Shown here in pieces: positions 15,168 through 42,087 of a stretch of DNA of 46,582 nt. The notes beneath the pieces were generated by a model that was not told the DNA's origin, searched no databases, and was given only the letters and a program-made list of their open reading frames with translations. Location of the stretch: IMG/VR virus record IMGVR_UViG_3300034817_000007, positions 1 through 46,582 of that record; one strand, given 5' to 3'. The stretch is from a virus. The translations under genes were made by a program, and so were the position numbers. The number at the start of each line of letters is the position of its first letter. Within the stretch, counting starts at the first letter, position 1.

Positions 15168-15602
15168 GTGGCAGGCTCCCCACTAACCCCCGAGGTCGCC
15201 CGCGCGAGGTTCTCGGCATGGGTCGAGCGCGCCCTTGAAGGCGCCCGCGCACAAGGACTCACCGACCGGGAAATCCAGCGCATCAGCGGCGTCTCGACCA
15301 GCACCTTCCACCGCTGGCGCCTCGCCGGGATCAAAGGCTTGCCGAAAATGCCCCAGGTCCGCGCTTTCGCCGCCGCGACCGGAGCCCGCGTTGAAGACGC
15401 CATGAAAGCACTCGGCATGACCGACGCGGACCCGGAACCCACCCCCGAGCCGCCGTTGCCCCGCGACGTCGTGACGATCATGCGTCGCCTCTCCGACCCG
15501 AACACCCCGGAGTCTGAGCGCGAGTTCATTCGCATGACATTGCAGATGCTCGCCGAACGCGCCGGCGGCAGGCGGCGTGACAGCGGCCAGGCAGCCGGGT
15601 GA
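15168..15602 (+). CDS. Repressor-like helix-turn-helix protein
   Basis: A 144-residue protein. Residues 10-60 hold an HTH: WVERALEGARAQGLTDREIQ, RISGVSTSTFHRWRL, and QVRAFAAATGARVEDAM. The C-terminal half is a Pro-rich linker and a short helix. Its place, divergent from the excisionase-like operon and joined to the integrase gene, suggests the immunity repressor. The GTG has no ribosome site but has TACCGT 6 bases upstream. An ATG at 15036 with its own TACCGT would add 44 mostly basic residues, so two forms are possible. Confidence 0.65.
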   Translation: MAGSPLTPEVARARFSAWVERALEGARAQGLTDREIQRISGVSTSTFHRWRLAGIKGLPKMPQVRAFAAATGARVEDAMKALGMTDADPEPTPEPPLPRDVVTIMRRLSDPNTPESEREFIRMTLQMLAERAGGRRRDSGQAAG

Positions 15603-16864
15603 TGGCGCGCAGCAGATACCCGGCGGTCAGCAAAGGTGAAGACGGGCTCTGGCATGCCTGGGTGACCGTCGGGACCAAGGGCAACGGGCGCCCCGACCAG
15701 CGGCACGTGAAGCGGGCCACCCGCGCCGAGGTCGAGGACCGCATCGACGAGCTGCTGGAGCAGAAACGCGACGGCGCCGTCGTCAAGGCGGGCCGTCCGG
15801 GCACCGTCGCGCATTGGCTGACCACGTACCTCGACACGGTGCTGCCCAGCACCGGCCGATGCGACCCGGGGACCATCCGGGACTACCGGTCGAAGATCAC
15901 GCACTGGGTGCTGCCGGTCATCGGCAACATCCGCCTCGACCGGCTGCAGGTCGACAACCTCGACGAGGTGTATCTGCGGATGCGTCGTGCCGGCCGGGCC
16001 GACTCGACGGTGCTGAAGGTGCACCGGATCCTGTCTCGTGCGTTCGAGGTGGCGCTGCGCCGGCGGCTGGTGCCGTTCAACGTGGCGAAGCGGCGGGATT
16101 CGCCGACGTTCGTTCCCGCGGATCAGTCGCCGCTGAGCCGGGAGGATGCGGCGGCGGTGCTCGCCGTTGCCGGTAGTGCCCGCTGGTCGGTGGCGCTGGC
16201 GCTCGGGTTGCGTCAGGGTGAGGCGCTCGGGTTGCGCTGGTCGTTCGTCGACCTGGACCGGGGTGAGATCCGGGTGTGGTGGCAGTTGCGGCGCCGGGCG
16301 TTCGATCACGGCTGCGGCGGGACGTGCGGGAAGCGGCGGGGCGGCAATTGCCCGCAGCGGGTGATGCCGCTGCACACCGGCGAGGTGACCGTGCTGGACC
16401 TGTCGAAGCCTGCGGACTCCGATCGGCGGACGGGGCTGGTGCTGAAGCGGCCGAAGGGCAACGGGCGGCGGACGGTGCCGCTGCCGGACGAGCTGGTCGC
16501 CGAGCTGCGCGCCCGCCTGGCCGCGCAGCAGGTCGAGCGGGCGCTGGCCGGGTCGCTGTGGCAGGACCACGGGTTCGTCTTCACCCGGCCGGACGGGCAG
16601 CCGATCGATCCGAAGGTGGACTACGCCGCGTGGCAGTCGATTCTGGCGGCGGCGGGAGTTCCGGCGACGAAGCTGCACAACGCACGGCACACGGCGGGGA
16701 CGATCATGACGGTGCTCGGCGTGCCGATCGAGGTGGTGCAGGAGGTCCTCGGTCATTCGGACGTGCGTACGACTCGGGGGTACGTCCACGTTGCCTCGGA
16801 GATGGCGAAGTCGGCTACGGGGCGTATCGGCCGGGAGTTGCTCCGGCGGGCGGATACACCCTGA
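15602..16864 (+). CDS. int: Tyrosine integrase
   Basis: A 420-residue tyrosine recombinase that should join attP to a tRNA-Thr attB. An N-terminal arm-binding region (1-65) and a SAM-like core-binding domain (about 66-165) precede the catalytic domain with R204 in LRQGEALGLRW, a Lys in the KRPKGNGRR hairpin near 285, H359-x-x-R362, H385 in LGHSD and nucleophile Y394. An inserted Cys-rich loop (CGGTCGKRRGGNC, about 238-250) may bind zinc; such inserts occur in actinomycete integrases. The ATG forms TGATG with the repressor stop; a GTG at 15599 is also possible. attP follows directly. Confidence 0.95.
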   Translation: MARSRYPAVSKGEDGLWHAWVTVGTKGNGRPDQRHVKRATRAEVEDRIDELLEQKRDGAVVKAGRPGTVAHWLTTYLDTVLPSTGRCDPGTIRDYRSKITHWVLPVIGNIRLDRLQVDNLDEVYLRMRRAGRADSTVLKVHRILSRAFEVALRRRLVPFNVAKRRDSPTFVPADQSPLSREDAAAVLAVAGSARWSVALALGLRQGEALGLRWSFVDLDRGEIRVWWQLRRRAFDHGCGGTCGKRRGGNCPQRVMPLHTGEVTVLDLSKPADSDRRTGLVLKRPKGNGRRTVPLPDELVAELRARLAAQQVERALAGSLWQDHGFVFTRPDGQPIDPKVDYAAWQSILAAAGVPATKLHNARHTAGTIMTVLGVPIEVVQEVLGHSDVRTTRGYVHVASEMAKSATGRIGRELLRRADTP

Positions 16865-20212: not shown

Positions 20213-21823
20213 ATGGCGGACCTCTTCCGCGTCTGGCTCCCCGTCGCCGGCGCCGTGGCAGCCGTAGCGGCCGACGAGGGGCACATGACCGGCGCCGGAA
20301 TCGCCGCCGTGGCGCTCTGGCGCGCCCGCCGATACCTGCACGAGCGGCGATTCAGGCGCGAGTACATCGAGCCGACGCTGGCCGCGATGTCCCCCGCGCT
20401 CGGCCTGCACGAATCCCACGTCAGGCTGCACGTCGACCCGTCGCTAGGGAACTTGACGCCCAGGCTTGCGAAGCCGCTGTCGCCCACGGAGAAGTGGATC
20501 CGGCTGCAGTACGGCGAGCACGTCGAGCCGGTGTTGCGGTGGTTGCCCGAGCGGGCGCAGCGTGGCGCGTGGAAGGTCCAGGCGTGGGCACGGCCCGTGA
20601 CGGCGAAGGCCGCACTGCTGCGCCGGCCGCGGGAGGACGCCGGCCCGCGGATCGAGCTGGTGGCGCGGACCCCGTATCTGACGAGCGAGCAGCGTCAGCT
20701 TGTGTCAGCGATCGTCAAGGCGAAGATCCCCGCCGGTGACCTGCTGGACTCCTGGCACCAGGTCGGGCCGCGGGTCCGGGTCGTGTGGACCGTACGGAAG
20801 CGGCCACCGTCGGCCGTCGGCCTCGACCACGTCCTGACGCAACTGCCCAACCTGAAGGAGTGGGAGTTCTACATCGGCCAGGCCGCCGGGGACGTCCCCG
20901 TGGTGGTGTCGCTGCGCGACGACTCGCCGCACATCTCGGAGAGCGCCGGATCGGGCGCGGGCAAGAGCGTGCTCGCCATGCTCATCGCCGTGCAGGTGCT
21001 GAACCGCGGCGGCCGGGTGCTGCTGCTGGATCGGAAGGGCTCGCACCGGTGGGCGCTGGGCATGCCGGGCGTCGACTACTGCACCAAGGCACCCCAGATG
21101 CACGACGCGCTGCTGCAGGTCTCGGCCATGGCCAACGAGCGCAACGACCTGGCCCTGCACGAGGAGGAGGACTGGGATCCAGGCCCGCGCACGCTGGTGA
21201 TCGCCGAGGAGTTGAACGCGACGATCGCGCAGCTCGCGAACTACTGGGCCGACGTCCGGGAGAAGGGCGAGCCGAAGAAATCCCCGGCGATTGCGGCGCT
21301 GGCCGATCTGCTTTTCATGGGCCGCTCGGCGAAGGTCAACGTTCTGGCCATTGCGCAAATGCTCACCGCCCGGGCGATCGGTGGCCCGGAGGCCCGGGAG
21401 AATTTCGGCATTCGCTGCCTCGCTCGCTATACGGCGAACAACTGGAAAATGCTCGTGCCCGAGGCTGCGATGCCCCGCGCGTCGCGGACTCTGGGCCGCT
21501 GGCAGGTCGTGATCGGCGGAACAGCCATAGAGGTACAAGTCGCCTACCTCACCACAAAACAGGCCCGCGCCCTCGCGAACCCGGGCGCGGGGCTTGATAG
21601 CGCATTGAGCAGGGAAGTTACCGGTGACGGTAACAAGGTGACCTTGCGGGAGGCCGCAGACGCCAGGCTGATCCCCTGGTCGTACGAGGCGGCGAAGCAG
21701 CGGCTGTATCGGCGCGTCGGGAATCTGCCGGAACCGCGCGGCACGAAAGGCAAGTCGTTCCTTTACGAGGAAGCGGATTTGGTGCGCTGGGTGGAGAGCG
21801 TGAAGTCGGAGTCGGTGGGATGA
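20213..21823 (+). CDS. FtsK/SpoIIIE-type DNA translocase (Tra-like)
   Basis: A 536-residue ATPase. A weak hydrophobic N-terminus (10-38) may touch the membrane. Walker A SGAGKS is at 247-252 and Walker B TLVIAEE at 327-333; an FtsK-like LLDRKG follows the first strand. The C-terminus (about 480-536) is a MerR/AlpA-like winged helix (LREAADARLIPWSYEAAKQR ... GKSFLYEEADLVRWVES) in place of the FtsK gamma domain. In AICEs such proteins move double-stranded DNA between cells. In a phage the role is unknown: conjugal spread, or moving phage DNA within the host. The ATG has AAGGAGG. Confidence 0.85.
   Translation: MADLFRVWLPVAGAVAAVAADEGHMTGAGIAAVALWRARRYLHERRFRREYIEPTLAAMSPALGLHESHVRLHVDPSLGNLTPRLAKPLSPTEKWIRLQYGEHVEPVLRWLPERAQRGAWKVQAWARPVTAKAALLRRPREDAGPRIELVARTPYLTSEQRQLVSAIVKAKIPAGDLLDSWHQVGPRVRVVWTVRKRPPSAVGLDHVLTQLPNLKEWEFYIGQAAGDVPVVVSLRDDSPHISESAGSGAGKSVLAMLIAVQVLNRGGRVLLLDRKGSHRWALGMPGVDYCTKAPQMHDALLQVSAMANERNDLALHEEEDWDPGPRTLVIAEELNATIAQLANYWADVREKGEPKKSPAIAALADLLFMGRSAKVNVLAIAQMLTARAIGGPEARENFGIRCLARYTANNWKMLVPEAAMPRASRTLGRWQVVIGGTAIEVQVAYLTTKQARALANPGAGLDSALSREVTGDGNKVTLREAADARLIPWSYEAAKQRLYRRVGNLPEPRGTKGKSFLYEEADLVRWVESVKSESVG
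21617..21646. promoter_or_regulatory. Candidate translocase recognition (clt-like) site
   Basis: Inside the translocase gene, GTTACCGGTGACGGTAAC (21617-21634) is a dyad with 7-base arms, followed by CAAGGTGACCTTG (21634-21646), itself a palindrome. Together they hold GGTGAC, GGTAAC and GGTGAC spaced 6-8 bases apart. Streptomyces tra genes are known to have their cis-acting transfer locus near the 3' end of tra, so this is a plausible recognition site for the winged helix encoded next. Confidence 0.4.
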
Positions 21824-34127: not shown

Positions 34128-34934
34128 CTAAGGCCGCAGGGTGACGCCCGCGTACGGGCGAGACGTGGTGCCGGTGTTCGGGCGAGACGTGGTGCCGATG
34201 AACGGCCGCGGGATGATCTTGCGGACCCGCGCGTCGTACGCCGTTCCGGTCGCCGAGGCCACCCCGGCGTTGGCCGCTCCAGGTGCACCCAGAACGACCG
34301 TGGCGTCGTACGCGGCCGACGTAGCGGCCGCCACGCCCGCAAGCGTGGTGATGGTGATCGTCGCGTCGAACGCCGCGCCGGTCGCGGCCGCCACACCTGC
34401 CGGCGCGTCGGTCTGGGCGGCCGTCGACACCGTGGCGTCGAGCGCGGCGCCTGTTCCTGTAGCAGCCCCAGGCTGGACGGCCAGGGCGGCGGTTGCGTCG
34501 TTCGCCGTGCCTGTACCGGTCGCCTCGGCCGCGTTGATTCCGAGCGCGACGGTGGTGTCGGCCGCCGATCCTGAGCCGGTGGCTTCGGCGGCGTTGGCGT
34601 TGACCGCGCTGGACGTGGATACGGTGGCGTCGTTGGCGACGCCTGTGCCGTCGGCGGAGCCGGGGAAAGCCGCGATGGAGCCGACGGCATCCGGCGCGGA
34701 TCCCGTGCCCGTCGCCTCGACCGCATTGACCGCGAGGGCGGCGGTGGCTGCGAGGGCGGATCCGGTGCCGGTCGCTTCGGCGGCGTTAGTGCCGATCGCA
34801 GCAAGGGCGTCCTGGGCAGATCCGGTTCCCGCGGCAACATCGGCCGGCGCATTCGTTGCTCCGCCGACGCCGTGGATGAACCGGCGGCGGACGACGGGTC
34901 GGCGGCGCTGCGGGCCGCGGCGCGGCCAGCCCAT
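34128..34934 (-). CDS. Repeat protein with about ten 20-24-residue units, 268 aa
   Basis: After a basic start (RRGPQRRRPVVRRRF) the protein is a chain of units like AAEATGTGSAxDATxALxxN, roughly ten copies over residues 30-225. It ends with RPFIGTTSRPNTGTTSRPYA, itself a short repeat. Ala/Thr/Gly-rich repeats of this sort suggest an extended virion surface fibre or spacer, possibly a glycosylation target because of its Thr/Ser content and the nearby glycosyltransferases. Only the repeats are seen; the role is inferred. Confidence 0.6.
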   Translation of the reverse strand: MGWPRRGPQRRRPVVRRRFIHGVGGATNAPADVAAGTGSAQDALAAIGTNAAEATGTGSALAATAALAVNAVEATGTGSAPDAVGSIAAFPGSADGTGVANDATVSTSSAVNANAAEATGSGSAADTTVALGINAAEATGTGTANDATAALAVQPGAATGTGAALDATVSTAAQTDAPAGVAAATGAAFDATITITTLAGVAAATSAAYDATVVLGAPGAANAGVASATGTAYDARVRKIIPRPFIGTTSRPNTGTTSRPYAGVTLRP

Positions 34935-34937
34935 CGG

Positions 34938-35414
34938 CTAACCCTGTTCTCTGACGTACAGCGTCCCCGACATCGTCAGGGAGTCAGCGGGGGCTGCGGC
35001 CAGCCGGACGACCAGGCTCGTGTCAGCCTGCGTAACGCCCCACTCGCAGCCGTCCGGCAGCCACAGCTTCTCGCCCGAGGCGACGTGGAAGGAATCGGCG
35101 TGCACGGTCGCCGTCGTGCCGGTGTTGGCTGCGGTCGTGTTGCACGTCTCGGCCGAGAACCCGGCCGCCGTGTCCGACCGGCCGAGCGGACTCGGGGTCG
35201 GGGTTGCGCCGCCGGATCCGGAGGTCGTGAAGCCGCGGATCACCGTGTACGGAAGCAGCTCGGCCTGGGCGTCGCCGAAGTCGGAGGACTGGCCGCAGAA
35301 GAAGCCGATGACCTCGAGCGGCTTGTCGTCGGCCGGGCGGATCTCGAACAGGTCGACCGCCGTGGTGACGGCAACCGCCGAGAAGGTGACCGTATAGATC
35401 CGGCCCTGCGACAT
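34938..35414 (-). CDS. Virion surface-like protein, 158 aa
   Basis: Beta-rich: MSQGRIYTVTFSAVAVTTAV, DLFEIRPADDKPLEVIGFF, later SGEKLWLPDGCEWGV and a final VRLAAAPADSLTMSGTLYV. It resembles small decoration or minor virion proteins of actinophages. It stands in a run of four such genes between the connector and the head-closure genes. Confidence 0.55.
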   Translation of the reverse strand: MSQGRIYTVTFSAVAVTTAVDLFEIRPADDKPLEVIGFFCGQSSDFGDAQAELLPYTVIRGFTTSGSGGATPTPSPLGRSDTAAGFSAETCNTTAANTGTTATVHADSFHVASGEKLWLPDGCEWGVTQADTSLVVRLAAAPADSLTMSGTLYVREQG

Positions 35415-35423
35415 GTGCCGCTC

Positions 35424-36188
35424 CTATCGCATGGTGAGACCGCGCGACGGGCGGCGCGGGAAGACGTGCTCGGCCGAGGCGGCGCTGGCTTGGCGGATCT
35501 CGACGGCGGCCGCGGCCATGTTGAACAAGGCTCCGCCGCCGCTGCGCAGGTCGTCCCAGCTGACCGACGTCGAGGCGACCCCGGCGCGGATCTCCGACTC
35601 CAGGCCGCCCCAGTCGCTGTTGAACATCGAGTCGTGGACCTCGGTCCACGTCGTCGGCGACGACCCGGGCGTCGCGCCGGCAGCACTCTTGTCCATCGCA
35701 ACTGCCGCGTAGCACTCCGACGTGCTCGACGGCGCCGCCGACAACGTGATGCTCGCCGGAGTGGGCGGGCCTGCGAACCCGCCGTTCTGCTGGCCGGTCG
35801 CCGTGGCGCCCGTCGGGGTGCCCGTGTCGTACCCGGTGTACGCGACGACCGAGACGGCGTACATACCCGCCTGACGGCCGCCGGCGCCCAGCGCCAGCGT
35901 CATGCTCGCGCCGGTCGACACCTGCGCGATCCAGATCTTCATCACCGTCGGGAAGCTCGTCGGCGCACTGGTGATCGACACCGGGCTTGACCAGGACCAG
36001 CCGCCGCCACTGAGCGTCAGCGAACTGGCCGGATCCGTGGTGGTGCTGGCGTTCTCCATGTAGCCCTCGCCGACCACCAGCAGCGAACTGGACGGCGGGG
36101 TGAAGCTGCTGCTCGTGAACGTGCCGGTGCCGAAGTTCCCCGAGGTGCCGGAAATCTGCTGCAGCAGGTCGGTGCGGGCCAGCGCCAC
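35424..36188 (-). CDS. Ig-like / decoration-like virion protein, 254 aa
   Basis: Ser/Thr/Gly-rich beta protein (SGTSGNFGTGTFTSSSFTPP, VMKIWIAQVSTGASMTLALG, GGRQAGMYAVSVVAYTGYD), ending FPRRPSRGLTMR. It is probably an exposed capsid or tail protein. No enzymatic motif. Confidence 0.55.
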   Translation of the reverse strand: MALARTDLLQQISGTSGNFGTGTFTSSSFTPPSSSLLVVGEGYMENASTTTDPASSLTLSGGGWSWSSPVSITSAPTSFPTVMKIWIAQVSTGASMTLALGAGGRQAGMYAVSVVAYTGYDTGTPTGATATGQQNGGFAGPPTPASITLSAAPSSTSECYAAVAMDKSAAGATPGSSPTTWTEVHDSMFNSDWGGLESEIRAGVASTSVSWDDLRSGGGALFNMAAAAVEIRQASAASAEHVFPRRPSRGLTMR

Positions 36189-36561: not shown

Positions 36562-37098
36562 TCAGGCGGCGAGAGTGCCGCGGTACATGCGCGCGAGGTC
36601 CCGCGCTGATGGGGTCAGCTGCAGGCCGCCGCCGGTCGTGGCGTACCTGACTGCGTAGTCGTCGATGGTCTCGGCGACCAATGCGGCGACCGGGATGTCG
36701 TAGGCCTGGGCGGCAACATCGAGCACTTCGGCCTTGACGTCGTCCGGCACCGTTGTCTCGCCGTGCATCAGGTCGATCTCGACCTTGTCCGGCGGGATCA
36801 GGCACGAGCTGCCGAACCCCTGCGGCCGCCACACCGTCCGCTTGATCAGCGTCCAGCCCGTGACCGTCACACCGTTGATTCGCACGGCGGTCACGGAGAT
36901 CACCGGCCGGAACGGGAGATCGATCGACGGGCACGGCGTGCCGAGCACCGTGTAGGTGGCCGCGGTCGGCTCGAACCACGTGTCCGCCTCGCGGGAGAAC
37001 AGCGCTGACGCGAGGGTGAGCACCTGGTTGGCGCTGTAGGTGTCGAGGTCCTTCTGTAGTTTCCCGGCCAGCTCGACGTCCGTCGCGTACTGCACCAC
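36562..37098 (-). CDS. Head-tail connector protein, 178 aa
   Basis: A helical N-terminus (ATDVELAGKLQKDLDTYSAN), then strands (PVISVTAVRINGVTVTGWTL) and a helical C-terminus (VKAEVLDVAAQAYDIPVAAL) fit the gp6/gp15-type adaptor under the portal. It follows the glycan cassette and begins the connector block. Confidence 0.65.
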   Translation of the reverse strand: MVQYATDVELAGKLQKDLDTYSANQVLTLASALFSREADTWFEPTAATYTVLGTPCPSIDLPFRPVISVTAVRINGVTVTGWTLIKRTVWRPQGFGSSCLIPPDKVEIDLMHGETTVPDDVKAEVLDVAAQAYDIPVAALVAETIDDYAVRYATTGGGLQLTPSARDLARMYRGTLAA

Positions 37099-37107
37099 GG
37101 CCGCCTC

Positions 37108-37992
37108 CTATGCCTCTGCTGCGAGCGCCCGCGCCACGCCCTCGGCGAGGGTGACGGTCGGCTTGTAGTACTGGTGGAACCGGGACGGGTCACCGACCCG
37201 GTAAGCGACGCCCGCGGGCTTGTCGAGGCGGAACTCGAACTCCGGCTGATACCCGGCCTGCTCGCAGGCCAGCTGCGCCAGCTCGACCATCGACGTGCCG
37301 ATCCCCGTGCAGAGGTTCACCGGGTCCTCGGTGCCGGACTCGACGACCGCGAGCGCGCCGGCCACGACGTCGTCGATGTGGATCCAGTCGCGTACCTGCT
37401 GGCCGTCGCCCCAGATGACGAACGGGTCCTCGCGGCGGCGGCCCCGCTCGACGAGGGCCCGGAACGGGAAGTTCTCGGTCTGATCCTCGCCGTAGCCGGA
37501 GAACGGCCGCACGACCGTGACGGGCAGGCCCTCGCGGCGCGCGGCCGCGGCGAGGCGCTCGCCCGTGAGCTTCGTCCAGCCATAGGCCGCGTCCGGGTTA
37601 CCGATGTTCCGGCGGCCTTCCCAGCGGATGTCGTCCTCACGCAGTTCGCGCGCGGTGGCGTGATCGTCTTGCAGGTCGATCGGGTAGGCCGCCGAGCTGG
37701 ACAGGTAGAGCACCCGGCCCTGACCGGTGCGGGCCGCCCAATCGAACATCGCCGCGTCGAGCTGCGCGTTGCGGGCGAAGTGCTCGGCCTCGCCGTCGAT
37801 CGCCGCCCGATGCGGGGCGGAGGCGGCCGCATGGACGACCAGGTCCCAGCGCTGCGTTCCGTGCCGGAAGTAGTCCAGGGCATCGACTCCGGTCATGACG
37901 TCCAGGCCTGCCGTCTCCCAGCCACGACGGTCAAGCTCGACAGCCATGTGCCTGCCAACGAAACCGGCCGAGCCGGTCACCAGGGCCTTCAC
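37108..37992 (-). CDS. NAD-dependent sugar epimerase/dehydratase
   Basis: A 294-residue extended short-chain dehydrogenase. The nucleotide site GSAGFVGRH is at residues 6-14, a Ser-rich strand (YLSSSAAYP) near 96-104 and the catalytic Y-x-x-x-K in YGWTK near 140. Later GDGQQVRDWIHIDDVV is the conserved substrate-side motif of nucleotide-sugar epimerases. It probably modifies a nucleotide sugar for the glycosyltransferases upstream. The GTG at 37992 overlaps the methyltransferase stop (GTGA). Confidence 0.85.
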   Translation of the reverse strand: MKALVTGSAGFVGRHMAVELDRRGWETAGLDVMTGVDALDYFRHGTQRWDLVVHAAASAPHRAAIDGEAEHFARNAQLDAAMFDWAARTGQGRVLYLSSSAAYPIDLQDDHATARELREDDIRWEGRRNIGNPDAAYGWTKLTGERLAAAARREGLPVTVVRPFSGYGEDQTENFPFRALVERGRRREDPFVIWGDGQQVRDWIHIDDVVAGALAVVESGTEDPVNLCTGIGTSMVELAQLACEQAGYQPEFEFRLDKPAGVAYRVGDPSRFHQYYKPTVTLAEGVARALAAEA

Positions 37993-38552
37993 CGGCACGC
38001 CCAGATCTGATAGGCGTAGACCCCGCCTGCCGGACGCAGATCGACAGTGGCGTGGATGTCCGGGATGAAACCCGCCTCACGCAGCATCTTCTCAACCGCC
38101 TCGGCGTCCCAGCCCCAGATGTGCTCCGGGTTGGAGTCGTCGTCTTCGCCGTCCGGAGTTGACAGCAGCAGGCGGCCTGCCTTCGGACGGATCTTGGCAA
38201 GCGCCGCGTCCGGGTCGTCGAGATGCTCGATCGTCTCCGAGCAGATGAACAGGTCGGCCGGCTCGATGTCGCCGATCGTCTGCTCGATCGGGCCCGTGTG
38301 CTCGTAGCCGGGCGCGTAGTCGCCGAGGATCAGGCGGGCGCCGTGAGACGCCTTCAGCCGGCGGGCGATCAGCGCGTTCCCGCACGACAGGTCCGCGACC
38401 GTGCCGCCTTGGGGCATCAGGTGGTGCGCGATCGCCGAGGTCACGTCGACCCGGAACAGGTGATCTTCCCACCGCCGATGATCGTGCGGGACGGCGTACA
38501 GCTTCGCGAGCTCGTCGGCCGGCGGCATCGGGCGCAGCCGCTTACGCATCAT
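37989..38552 (-). CDS. SAM-dependent methyltransferase, 187 aa
   Basis: Class I fold signs: VADLSCGNALIARRL near residues 52-66 (motif I), ARLILGDYAPG (acidic ribose binder), DLFICSETIEHLDDPDAALA near 100-120, and LLLSTPDGEDDD. It probably methylates a sugar, given neighbours on both sides, rather than DNA. It overlaps both neighbouring genes by 4 bases. Confidence 0.75.
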   Translation of the reverse strand: MMRKRLRPMPPADELAKLYAVPHDHRRWEDHLFRVDVTSAIAHHLMPQGGTVADLSCGNALIARRLKASHGARLILGDYAPGYEHTGPIEQTIGDIEPADLFICSETIEHLDDPDAALAKIRPKAGRLLLSTPDGEDDDSNPEHIWGWDAEAVEKMLREAGFIPDIHATVDLRPAGGVYAYQIWACR

Positions 38553-39232
38553 CGCAGCGCCTGCACTTTCGCCAAGTCGGCCGCGAAGTGCTCGGTCACG
38601 TACCGGCCGTACGCCTCCGCGTCGCGCTGGTACATCGCCTGGGCGTTGACCCGCTTGTGACCCTCGTCCCAGTCGGCCTTGCCGGCGATCGGGTGCATGT
38701 GCTCGACTACGACGTCGGGCAGGTAGCTCAGGCAGCCGGCGGCCTCGCCGAGGTCCCGCCAGTAGTTGTCGACGTACAGGTGAGTCAACGTCGGCGGAGC
38801 CATGTGACCGAGCGCCCGGACGATGTCCGCGGTCATCGCGACCTGGGTCGGGATGCGCTCGCCCTGCAGCAGGTCGTCGCCATAGACGATGCCGGTGCCG
38901 AGTTCGCGCAGTGCCTCGACGTAGAGCTTGTCCCACTTCCGGGTACGCGGGCGGTGGTCGTCGCCCATGAAGCCGATGGCGTACGCCTCATTGGCGAACA
39001 GCCCGGCGGTTACGTTCAGGGTCTTCACCATGGTCGACGGCGACGGGGCGAGGTGCACCGTGGTCCACGGGTAGGAGTTCAGCGCCTCGGCGTAGGAGAA
39101 GCGAGTGGGGTCGTCCGCATCGACGGCGAACACCAGGCGAGCGGTGGCGACCGTATCGGTGAATGCCAAGGCAAGCTCTCGCGCCGCCTCTGGGCGGCCG
39201 CGGGACGGGACGATCACTACGAGATCGGTCAC
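38549..39232 (-). CDS. Glycosyltransferase-like protein, 227 aa
   Basis: GT-A type start DLVVIVPSRGRPEAARELAL, acidic VFAVDADDP near residue 36 (DxD-like), AIGFMGDDHRPRTRKWD near 87, and VYGDDLLQGE. These fit a family 2-like transferase using a nucleotide sugar. It is joined by GTGA to the other glycosyltransferase upstream and by ATGA to the methyltransferase downstream, so the four genes form one translational unit. Confidence 0.75.
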   Translation of the reverse strand: MTDLVVIVPSRGRPEAARELALAFTDTVATARLVFAVDADDPTRFSYAEALNSYPWTTVHLAPSPSTMVKTLNVTAGLFANEAYAIGFMGDDHRPRTRKWDKLYVEALRELGTGIVYGDDLLQGERIPTQVAMTADIVRALGHMAPPTLTHLYVDNYWRDLGEAAGCLSYLPDVVVEHMHPIAGKADWDEGHKRVNAQAMYQRDAEAYGRYVTEHFAADLAKVQALR

Positions 39233-40017
39233 GATGCCACCTCGGCGGGCTCCTCGCCCTGCTCGGCCAGTTGGGCGGCGATGGCCTCCTGCGCCTGGCG
39301 CAGGGCCCGCTGCTCCATGTACTGCTCTTCGCCGAGCCACAGGTGCTTGAAGTGGGTGGTCGGGACGCCGGTGTGCACGTAGATCGGGATGCGAAGCGCG
39401 CCCGCCCGCAGGCAGAACGACAAGTCCTCGCCAATGAGCTGCCCGGTCGTCGTGTTTGGCACCCGGTCGTACCAGACCCGGCCGTGCTCGGCCTCGATCT
39501 TCTCGAAGACGGAGCGGTGGATCAGGATGCAGGCCGCCCCGGTGCCGCCGACCTGGGTCAGCGTGTTCAGCGCGTAGTCCCAGCGGATCTGCCACCCGTA
39601 CTGGCCGTCGACCTTCGCCCAGTCCATGACCGTCGGCGTTGCCGTGGTGCGGTAGCCGCCCAGCTGGTCGGGATCATCCTCGCGCTGCGAGAAGCACAGC
39701 GCGCCGACGATCGGCCGCTCGATCGGGTCGGCCGCCTCGAGAAGCCGGTCGACCGTATCCGGACGGAAGCCCATGTCCGTGTCGACCCAGAACAGCCAGT
39801 CCGCCCGCTCGTACTGCAGGAAGTTCCGCACCGCCTCGTTGCGGGCGGTCACCAGCCCATCGGTGCCGCACCGCATCGCGATGTGCCCGCCGGCGTGGAT
39901 CCGGCCGGAGTTCGCAGTGTCGTACTCGAGCAGCTCGATCAAGCTGCGGACCCAGGAGTAGATCACCGTGTTGCCGCACACGTAGGCGACGGCCACAGCT
40001 TCGCTGCGATCAACCAC
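39229..40017 (-). CDS. Glycosyltransferase family 2-like protein, 262 aa
   Basis: TDGLVTARNEAVRNFLQYER then ADWLFWVDTDMGFRPDTVD gives the GT-A fold with a DTD metal site near residues 78-80; GGTGAACILIHRSVFEKIE and GEDLSFCLRAG match later conserved elements. It probably transfers a sugar onto a virion protein. First gene of the four-gene glycan cassette; an acidic Gln/Glu-rich helix closes the protein. Confidence 0.8.
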   Translation of the reverse strand: MVDRSEAVAVAYVCGNTVIYSWVRSLIELLEYDTANSGRIHAGGHIAMRCGTDGLVTARNEAVRNFLQYERADWLFWVDTDMGFRPDTVDRLLEAADPIERPIVGALCFSQREDDPDQLGGYRTTATPTVMDWAKVDGQYGWQIRWDYALNTLTQVGGTGAACILIHRSVFEKIEAEHGRVWYDRVPNTTTGQLIGEDLSFCLRAGALRIPIYVHTGVPTTHFKHLWLGEEQYMEQRALRQAQEAIAAQLAEQGEEPAEVAS

Positions 40018-40246
40018 GGCGGTTCCGCCTCTCGCCCGGCGCCGCCGTCGCCTGCTCCACCGGGGCGTCGAAGCCCGCGGGCTCGACGGTGAAGTTCAGG
40101 CCGTACCGGGCATCCGCCGAGAACAGCGAAGGCTGGGCCTTCACGATCGGGTCATCGGCGGGCCAATGCGAGCCCTGAACGACGCGCCGCTGCGCGCCGC
40201 CGGGGGTGGCTACGACGGCGTTCGCCGTCGCGTAGACGATCTCCAT
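40010..40246 (-). CDS. Small head protein, 78 aa
   Basis: Contains RRVVQGSHWPADDPIVKAQP followed by SLFSADARYG. The W-x-A-D-D-P-x-V motif is common in small proteins encoded after the capsid gene in actinophages. Role unknown; probably structural. Confidence 0.55.
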   Translation of the reverse strand: MEIVYATANAVVATPGGAQRRVVQGSHWPADDPIVKAQPSLFSADARYGLNFTVEPAGFDAPVEQATAAPGERRNRRG

Positions 40247-40268
40247 CTGAATCTTCTCCCAGGTGTGC

Positions 40269-40304
40269 GGAAGCCCCCGAGAACCTGGGATCCCGGGGGC
40301 TTCC
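40269..40304 (-). terminator. Hairpin between capsid block and glycan cassette
   Basis: 11-base perfect arms GGAAGCCCCCG and CGGGGGCTTCC with a 14-base loop. It may lower transcription after the heavily expressed capsid genes. There is no long U-run. Confidence 0.6.
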
Positions 40305-40335
40305 TGACCTGCGGTGCGCTACCGCAGGTTGCGTG

Positions 40336-40557
40336 TCACTCGTAGCCGAACTTCCGGAGCTCGTCGCTCGCGGCCTTCTCGGCGTCCTTGTCGTCGTTCA
40401 TTTGCGCCGTCTGGATCTCGGCGAGCAGCTGGTGCACGGCCGGGTCCGAGGACTCGGCCGCCGGCGCGAGGCTGGCCCGCGGCGCGGCACCGGCCGCGGG
40501 CTTGTCGGTCGGCTTGCTGTCGGTTGCGGTGCTGGTCTTGCTGGTGGCGTCGGCCAT
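40336..40557 (-). CDS. Small Lys/Ala-rich protein after capsid, 73 aa
   Basis: Begins MADATSKTSTATDSKPTDKP; the second half is an acidic helix (QLLAEIQTAQMNDDKDAEKA). AAGGGAAG precedes the ATG. It may be a minor head or assembly protein. Confidence 0.5.
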   Translation of the reverse strand: MADATSKTSTATDSKPTDKPAAGAAPRASLAPAAESSDPAVHQLLAEIQTAQMNDDKDAEKAASDELRKFGYE

Positions 40558-40608: not shown

Positions 40609-42087
40609 CTACGTGTTGACCAACAGCCGGAAGCCCAGGTCGTTGACGCTGTTGCCTCCGATTCGTGCGTACGCGAACCAGCCCCGCTGACCGGTGGGCC
40701 GGTTGTTGGTGACGTCGAACAGCTGCGGGACGAGTTCGACGCTCATGCCGCCGCGGCGGGCGATCACGTAGTTCGACCAGTCGCCGACGACCGCGAGCTC
40801 CGTGGTCGCCGAGGTGGAGCTGGTGATGTCGTTCATGTAGGGCGACTCGTAGACGCCCTTGCCGAACAGGGTGTCCGCCCACTCGGCCGGAAGGTTGTCG
40901 GTGAACGCGTGGAACACGTTCGCCGTGCCCAGCTGCCGGATCGCGTTGTTCACGCCGACCGACATCATCCAGTTCGCGCCGCGGCGGAACCGCTGCGGCA
41001 GGGCCTTCCACACCGCGTACGGGTCGGCCGTACCCAGCGCGCCGGAGGTCGTCACGCGCACCCGGACGTTGGTGTTCGCCGACAGCTGGGTGACGATGCC
41101 GTTCGGCTCGCCCGTGCCGGAGCCGCGGGTGAACTTGTCGACCAGCAGCTCGTCGTAGCCGGACGCCAGTAGGGTCTGCATCTCGTCGGCGAAGCCCGGG
41201 TAGTCCTGCCCGACCTCGATCGAGTACGGGATGAAGCCGCGGGCCATGTAGACCTGCACCGTCGGCTGGGCCAGCGTCGGGGAGTTGTCGGTGACCGCGA
41301 CACCCTCGGACTGGAACGCCCAGGAGACGCCGGCGCTCGAGACGCCCTTCCACATGTTGGTGTTGACGTCGACCTGCTTGGCCAGGGTCAGGAACGGGTT
41401 CCCGGAGCCCTGCGCGGTCAGGATGATCGACGGGTCGATGAACACCGGGATGCCGAAGCCGCCCGCGGTGGTGGTGCCCTCGGACATTGCCCGGTACTCG
41501 TTGTAGGCGAGCACGGCGTTGCGCTCGTCGTCGGTGAGCATCGGGTGCGGGTCGGAGACCAGCTTCATCCACGCCGACCGGTAGTCCTCGTTCTCGGTGA
41601 CCAGGATCCGGCGGGCGATGTCGGTGTTGCGGCGGACCGCCTTCTCGACCTGGTCGATCTGGTCGGTGGCCAGGTGCCGGGTCGAGTTGCGGTCGTCGAG
41701 GATCCGCAGCGCCCGGTCCCGGGCCTCCGGCACGGTGAGCCTGCGGACGTCGGCGCCCGGGTCGTCGAGGCCGTAGCGGATGTTCGCCAGGGCCCGCTCG
41801 ACGGCCTTCGGCTTGCGCCGGAAGATCTCCTGGATGTTGCGGTGCTCCTCGATCTTCGAGATCGCCTTGTCGCGCAGCTTCAGGCCGTAGTCGAAGGCCT
41901 TCTGCTCCTCGGGGGTCTTCTCGCGCAGCTCGCCCTCGTCGGTCTGGTGGATCGACCGCAGGTGCGCGTCGAGCACCGTCACGTACGCGGCCAGCTCGTC
42001 GGGGGTCTTGCCACGGAGCTCGTCGGGCATGGTGTCACCGAGGTCCGCGGGGTCCTTGCCGCGCAGCTCCTCGAGGATGTCCGTCAT
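40609..42087 (-). CDS. Major capsid protein, HK97 fold with N-terminal delta domain
   Basis: A 492-residue capsid protein. Residues 1-200 are charged helices (ELRGKDPADLG, ELRGKTPDELAAYVTVLD, KAISKIEEHRNIQEI), the internal scaffold-like delta domain expected to be cut by the protease. From GTTTAGGFGIPVFIDPSI (about 204-221) the HK97 capsid fold begins; NPFLTLAKQV, GSGTGEPNGIV and the final GFRLLVNT are typical. It follows portal and protease directly. Confidence 0.9.
   Translation of the reverse strand: MTDILEELRGKDPADLGDTMPDELRGKTPDELAAYVTVLDAHLRSIHQTDEGELREKTPEEQKAFDYGLKLRDKAISKIEEHRNIQEIFRRKPKAVERALANIRYGLDDPGADVRRLTVPEARDRALRILDDRNSTRHLATDQIDQVEKAVRRNTDIARRILVTENEDYRSAWMKLVSDPHPMLTDDERNAVLAYNEYRAMSEGTTTAGGFGIPVFIDPSIILTAQGSGNPFLTLAKQVDVNTNMWKGVSSAGVSWAFQSEGVAVTDNSPTLAQPTVQVYMARGFIPYSIEVGQDYPGFADEMQTLLASGYDELLVDKFTRGSGTGEPNGIVTQLSANTNVRVRVTTSGALGTADPYAVWKALPQRFRRGANWMMSVGVNNAIRQLGTANVFHAFTDNLPAEWADTLFGKGVYESPYMNDITSSTSATTELAVVGDWSNYVIARRGGMSVELVPQLFDVTNNRPTGQRGWFAYARIGGNSVNDLGFRLLVNT

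Follow-up and report, generated by a model that had tools for sequence, protein, structure and literature searches.

The virus record IMGVR_UViG_3300034817_000007, from a soil actinophage and analyzed here over its complete IMG/VR length of 46,582 bases (the window), carries a cassette of four genes, GT1, GT2, MT, and EPI, within a structural operon on the minus strand. The order of the operon is terminase, portal, HK97-type capsid, the small genes g86 and g78, GT1, GT2, MT, EPI, head-tail adaptor, and tail genes, and the cassette sits after the capsid block and before the adaptor, with all genes in the same orientation. The major capsid protein (40609..42087, minus strand) matches PF05065 (1.4e-28), and the head-tail adaptor that forms the right border of the cassette (36562..37098, minus strand) matches phrog_442 (4.5e-23). 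GT1 (39229..40017, minus strand; 262 amino acids) is predicted to be a GT-A glycosyltransferase (GT) and is the constant, capsid-linked enzyme of the locus, and GT2 (38549..39232, minus strand; 227 amino acids, start codon GTG) is a predicted second GT-A enzyme. MT (37989..38552, minus strand; 187 amino acids) encodes a putative S-adenosylmethionine (SAM)-dependent methyltransferase, probably a sugar O-methyltransferase, and EPI (37108..37998, minus strand; 296 amino acids) a putative nucleoside-diphosphate sugar (NDP-sugar) epimerase/dehydratase of the extended short-chain dehydrogenase/reductase (SDR) type.

The first-pass annotation of this DNA had described two glycosyltransferases, a methyltransferase, and a sugar epimerase inside the structural operon, and the open reading frames (ORFs) together with PHROGs and Pfam matches confirm this description. 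Its figure of 4-8 bases for the overlaps was close: GT1 and GT2 share 4 bases (GTGA), GT2 and MT share 4 bases (ATGA), and GT1 overlaps the upstream gene g78 by 8 bases, while MT and EPI overlap by 10 bases, a figure that drops to 4 with the following GTG (37992) as the start of EPI. Ratios of nonsynonymous to synonymous substitution (dN/dS), calculated against four related loci, were 0.27-0.48 for GT1, 0.10-0.34 for GT2, 0.13-0.16 for MT, and 0.26-0.37 for EPI; these values (0.10-0.48 overall) resemble those of the adjoining structural genes and indicate purifying selection. No sigma-70 promoter was found in the region. The four cassette genes are real and translationally coupled.

GT1 matches the glycosyltransferase family phrog_34859 (2.2e-16), and GT2 matches phrog_14945, also a glycosyltransferase family (2e-48), as well as phrog_2675, with relatives of GT2 present in 69 phage records. 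No sequence homology between GT1 and GT2 was detected, and a PDB sequence search with the GT2/GT2b profile returned only one weak GT match. AlphaFold2 models built from alignments of relatives reached predicted local distance difference test (pLDDT) scores of 90.9 for GT1 and 96.8 for GT2, and at E<=0.001 Foldseek returned 161 PDB matches for the former and 310 for the latter, the best being GT-A enzymes. The neighbors of GT1 include A197 of Sulfolobus turreted icosahedral virus (STIV), Mnn9, SpsA, polypeptide GalNAc-transferases (ppGalNAc-T), and GlfT2, and those of GT2 include chondroitin polymerase (K4CP), PcManGT, WrtF, and TarS/TarP. Residues D79 and D81 (DxD), E197, D198, and H222 of GT1 are retained in every domain that covers them among 96 distinct domains, one GT1-seeded and one capsid-seeded domain being cut before the last three residues; D91-D92 and E177-H178 of GT2 are retained in at least 90% of 41 alignment rows. 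On the basis of the models, we confidently predict that both proteins are GT-A fold glycosyltransferases with intact catalytic residues.

The assignment of MT is probable and draws on a match to PF13489 that lies slightly under the Pfam cutoff (1.5e-5; 25.2 bits, cutoff 27) and on a motif-I-like DLSCGN; the protein has no match in the phage protein collection and no PDB sequence match. EPI matches PF01370 well above the cutoff (1.7e-35; 123 bits, cutoff 20.9) and carries GSAGFVG at position 9 (GxxGxxG) and YGWTK at position 139 (YxxxK), which mark it by sequence as an extended SDR NDP-sugar epimerase. Its PDB relatives, namely UDP-glucose 4-epimerase (7.5e-18), MoeE5, and GDP-fucose synthase, have several activities among them, and the single epimerase of the window does not define the sugar.

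We surveyed related loci, whose genes were called by a codon-score script and labeled with profiles seeded with the window proteins. A GT1-seeded scan of viral contigs yielded 50 loci, and in nearly all of these a related capsid gene stands immediately upstream. Against seeding bias, a second scan was seeded with the capsid protein and yielded 53 loci, 11 of which end sooner than 700 bp past the capsid gene; GT1 lies downstream in all 42 loci that hold at least 700 bp (7 of these on contigs also present in the GT1 scan and 35 new, with several others near-duplicates). Such co-occurrence, taken with the purifying selection on the cassette, places the association with the capsid gene beyond chance. 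Capsid identity is about 33-41% in seven cultured relatives (Gordonia Kita, Eyre, and Mcklovin; Mycobacterium Sbash, Brujita, and prophiGD90-1; Rhodococcus REQ1), and there the capsid gene is followed by the connector with no annotated GT, as judged from the deposited annotation, Kita and Eyre having also been searched with profiles. In prophiGD90-1 an oxidoreductase and a capsid decoration protein fill the slot between capsid and adaptor (L135:2592-3735).

In bacterial genomes, a related capsid gene lies immediately upstream of GT1 in 12 of 16 loci. The four exceptions are L115 and L120, taken up below, L122, where GT1 stands beside genes whose translations read as terminase-like and portal-like, and L123, where it precedes terminase and portal genes. 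Two family-wide searches found GT1 in 6/341 and 3/390 genomes, showing that it is rare on chromosomes, and these counts may be low, with 7-8 first-look candidates scored per listed genome; among the new loci, the capsid gene is present in five further genomes (L138-L141 and L143). From the surveys of viral contigs and bacterial genomes together, GT1 is mainly a phage head-module gene.

Behind GT1, the enzymes are exchanged from locus to locus, and GT1 itself stays constant. The first-pass annotation had proposed a search for the same four-gene order in other phages, and the order GT1-GT2-MT-EPI was found in eight loci (L006, L007, L056, L057, L065, L077, and the prophages L112 of Spongiactinospora rosea and L113 of Spongiactinospora gelatinilytica), each with a gene of the MT class in the equivalent place. 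An additional methyltransferase domain or gene occurs in L006, L065, and L077. The sequence of L010 breaks off after MT, and L034 and L041 show the order GT1-GT2-EPI-MT. The slot differs already at 72-77% capsid identity. It holds an RMNT/CmcI methyltransferase in L062, a zinc-finger C-methyltransferase with an epimerase in L066, and, in L061, a GT, an epimerase, a methyltransferase, and a UDP-arabinopyranose-mutase-like protein of the reversibly-glycosylated-polypeptide (RGP) family (L061:11100-12059; PF03214, 8e-46). Fusions occur at this capsid identity as well, with an FkbM methyltransferase joined to GT1 in L070 and GT2 joined to a Methyltransf_24 domain in L011/L074. In 19 of 42 capsid-seeded loci, the second GT is joined to GT1.

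Where 2.5 kb or more follow GT1, the stretch ahead of the connector holds one or several further GT, methyl, or epimerase genes in 19/21 capsid-seeded and 24/32 GT1-seeded loci; in this tally, clusters u3, u13, u14, u16, u28, u37, u69, and u70 were each assigned through one Pfam-scanned representative (the matches of u16 and u28 being below cutoff), and u22 was counted as a possible methyltransferase, the scanned u22 fragment having no Pfam match. No extra enzyme was seen in ten loci, namely L031, L032, L033, L038, L039, L040, L044, L049, L095, and L099, with L044 and L095 representing one contig. Directly after GT1, L031, L033, L035, L040, and L099 encode a hydrophobic protein, u12, which probably resides in a membrane and for which no Pfam family scored above cutoff.

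The interval between the capsid gene and GT1 contains two small genes and a double hairpin. The gene g86 (40336..40557, minus strand), located 3' of the capsid gene, encodes a small Ser/Thr/Ala/Pro-rich protein; many GT1-bearing relatives lack this gene. The gene g78 (40010..40246, minus strand), which encodes a small head-tail-connector-like protein (phrog_9538, 8e-4) with the C-terminal sequence VEQATAAPGERR, was present in 43/43 capsid-seeded loci holding at least 300 bp past the capsid gene and was not found in the GT1 loci L049-L052, L124, and L126. In most loci g78 ends in the motif VExATAAPGE[KR]R; in L068, L071, and L076 it lacks the motif, which the neighboring g86 carries instead. 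The motif could perhaps be a docking peptide. As a GT1-specific acceptor tag it was ruled out, as Gordonia Kita and Eyre, which have no GT, carry it as well. The two RNA hairpins (40241..40336, minus strand; minimum free energy -49.9 kcal/mol, z -5.1) lie between the capsid genes and g78-GT1 and have no T-run. Hairpin-like sequence was seen in 42 of 70 matching gaps, with sequences differing between relatives, a count made without a background control. The double hairpin may keep enzyme levels under capsid levels.

Taken together, the anatomy of the locus suggests, with a probability of roughly 0.7, a capsid-linked virion-glycosylation locus that would furnish the head with a glycan tailored by the phage and usually methylated. 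Virion glycosylation is the best-supported explanation because the cassette is linked to the capsid gene, the catalytic residues are intact, and the mycobacteriophage Corndog, discussed below, provides a precedent. For the formation of the glycan, its sugar, its linkage, its place on the head, the carrier protein, and the sequence of reactions, we infer the following scheme. GT1, GT2, MT, and EPI would be produced late in infection by coupled translation, and EPI would reshape a host NDP-sugar. GT1 may then attach the first sugar to a Ser/Thr residue in a protein of the head, with the major capsid protein as the likeliest target; GT2 would extend the glycan, and MT would O-methylate the sugar. 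The enzymes behind GT1 would act as a swappable set that alters the glycan. The made-to-order sugar suggested by the first-pass annotation gains strength from the enzymes swapped among relatives, but the lone epimerase of the window leaves the sugar undefined. More tentatively, and at slightly under even odds, we propose an uncultivated lineage of actinophages with a universal capsid-linked GT and a hot-swap slot in which whole sets of genes for building and methylating sugars are exchanged (a second GT, a C-methyltransferase for deoxysugars, a methyltransferase of the rhamnosyl/CmcI or FkbM type, an epimerase, and a UDP-arabinopyranose-mutase-like enzyme), which would create O-antigen-like glycotypes of the phage coat.

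No partner of GT1 is as constant as the capsid protein, which is for that reason the first acceptor candidate; it is most likely the acceptor or the acceptor neighborhood. A methylated sugar on virion proteins had been proposed before, perhaps carried by the repeat proteins rich in Thr, Ser, and Gly (34128-36188), and the general idea is supported by the capsid linkage, the precedent, and the catalytic residues. The choice of carriers finds no support. The repeat proteins do not directly follow the cassette, the adaptor and a 110-codon ORF intervening, and nothing else in the region is conserved as poorly. That they, and not the capsid protein, are glycosylated by the cassette is unlikely. Their Ser+Thr content is 20-27% versus 13% in the capsid protein, and in other loci different large Ser/Thr-rich proteins stand nearby, the corresponding head-tail region of the Spongiactinospora prophage L112 holding a LamG/ConA-like lectin protein (L112:11566-12768; PF13385, 9e-10). 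However, in the nearest four-gene relatives their homologs are weak or missing (rep254 29-30% identical or none, rep158 none, rep268 partial), and GT1 is retained beside the capsid gene in loci that have no repeat proteins or have unrelated ones (L031-L040, L049-L052, and L060). In the freshwater loci L031-L040, connector and tail genes come after GT1, and no Ser/Thr-rich protein of this type is encoded there. As obligatory partners of GT1, the repeat proteins are ruled out.

Several observations weigh against glycosylation of the head. The C-terminus of the capsid protein is not Ser/Thr-rich, and the capsid alignment revealed no clear GT1-specific Ser/Thr site, T396 and T425 being weak candidates. 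The linkage of GT1 to the capsid gene could mirror operon inheritance. In Rugosimonospora africana, a GT1 relative occurs in non-phage surroundings, with a ThiF-family protein and ABC transporters as neighbors (L115, 6383-8687), possibly as part of a peptide-modifying cluster, and no related capsid gene was seen in L120 or L144. By sequence, GT1 and GT2 are not detectably related to Che8 gp110 or Firecracker gp36, which represented the GT family of its relative Corndog, the latter not being in the compared collection (hhalign probability <3%); profile A3 (one of the GT1/GT2 profiles, A2 and A3) likewise scored below 3% against Che8 gp109. Finally, the fold neighbors of GT2 include the wall-teichoic-acid GTs TarS and TarP.

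This last similarity, the integrase of the phage, and the probable membrane protein u12 behind GT1 in five relatives would also fit enzymes that modify a teichoic-acid-like polymer of the host wall and alter the surface of the lysogen or infected cell, as TarP or Gtr systems do. We consider this unlikely. Similarity of GT-A folds is generic, the cassette is embedded among the late head genes, and GT1 universally accompanies this capsid gene; moreover, the four cassette proteins show no membrane-like stretch in a hydropathy scan (maximum Kyte-Doolittle value 1.32), and no flippase-like gene was seen among the neighboring ORFs of the window. It is very unlikely that GT1 alone acts on the head and that GT2, MT, and EPI form a passenger moron with an unrelated role: GT1 is indeed constant and the remainder variable, and 8/32 GT1-seeded and 2/21 capsid-seeded loci have no further enzyme ahead of the connector, but the second GT is often fused to GT1, and most of the scanned fused or neighboring proteins are glycan or methyl enzymes. 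Modification of phage DNA is highly improbable, for although some phages glycosylate their DNA and phrog_2675 is labeled DNA methyltransferase, that family is a GT fused to an O-methyltransferase-looking domain (compare pas34 of phiAsp2 and L011), a partial scan of 10 other window proteins found no base-modification gene, and the position of the cassette is late.

Outside the structural operon, the plus strand of the window encodes a HerA/FtsK-like ATPase (DUF87; 20213-21823), an unusual cargo in a phage of this kind, and a tyrosine integrase (15599-16864).

If head glycosylation is correct, a broad lineage of soil and freshwater actinophages would glycosylate its heads as a rule and diversify the sugar by enzyme swapping, and the cassettes would supply natural enzymes with which HK97-type capsids could be decorated. 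It would also offer a route to asking what capsid sugars are for outside animal immunity, with grazers, desiccation, soil adhesion, and binding to the host surface as candidate answers. Prophages in named Spongiactinospora species open this reading to testing.

In the accessible part of the literature searched, virion glycosylation is established for few cultured mycobacteriophages. Proteins of Che8, Corndog, and Myrna are glycosylated, and Che8 gp110 and Corndog gp38 are named as essential for capsid glycosylation (PMC12363180). Corndog encodes an O-methyltransferase, two GTs, and a putative GlcNAc-transferase (gp35-38) between portal and capsid protease; these proteins were reportedly not found in twice-purified virions and were found in other samples, including infected cells, and few capsid peptides were seen (PMC4351075). 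The window shares with Corndog and Cluster O the arrangement of GT genes linked to head genes together with a methyltransferase, there an O-methyltransferase and GTs within the head operon near the capsid protease and capsid genes, in phages whose virions are reported to be glycosylated. It differs in that the GTs of Corndog lie upstream of the protease, whereas those of the window follow the capsid gene; as described, the Corndog-type loci include no epimerase, and they belong to closely related phages and not to a lineage in which enzymes are swapped. Che8 (Cluster F) likewise encodes tandem GTs (gp108-gp110), one named as essential for capsid glycosylation, but at the right genome end, distant from the capsid gene. 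We do not claim the cassette, judged by sequence, as a member of the Che8 gp110/Corndog gp38 family.

Other partial counterparts were recognized. Actinoplanes phage phiAsp2 carries overlapping genes for a GT, a methyltransferase-annotated protein, and another GT (pas33-pas35), and the N-terminal part of the methyltransferase-annotated protein is a GT2 relative (40.5% identity); this block, of putative function, lies after the tail genes and has no epimerase. Tetrasphaera phage TJE1 (orf9-orf14) combines an epimerase, a methyltransferase, and a GT in one block upstream of terminase and portal, but its epimerase is 23.5% identical to EPI, and order and place differ. The virus-coded STIV A197 (PDB 2c0n) is the best PDB fold match of GT1, although it stems from an archaeal virus and is 16% identical to GT1; we take it to be a GT-A protein of a virus whose capsid is presumably glycosylated. 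A literature search found no description of a locus like that of the window, which is weak evidence of absence, since most subscription papers lay outside its coverage. By anatomy, the locus appears to resemble the Corndog/Che8 type, with GTs that are not detectably related by sequence and a different place in the genome, and its swapped sugar-building set is, as far as we are aware, a new element compared with known phage glycosylation loci.

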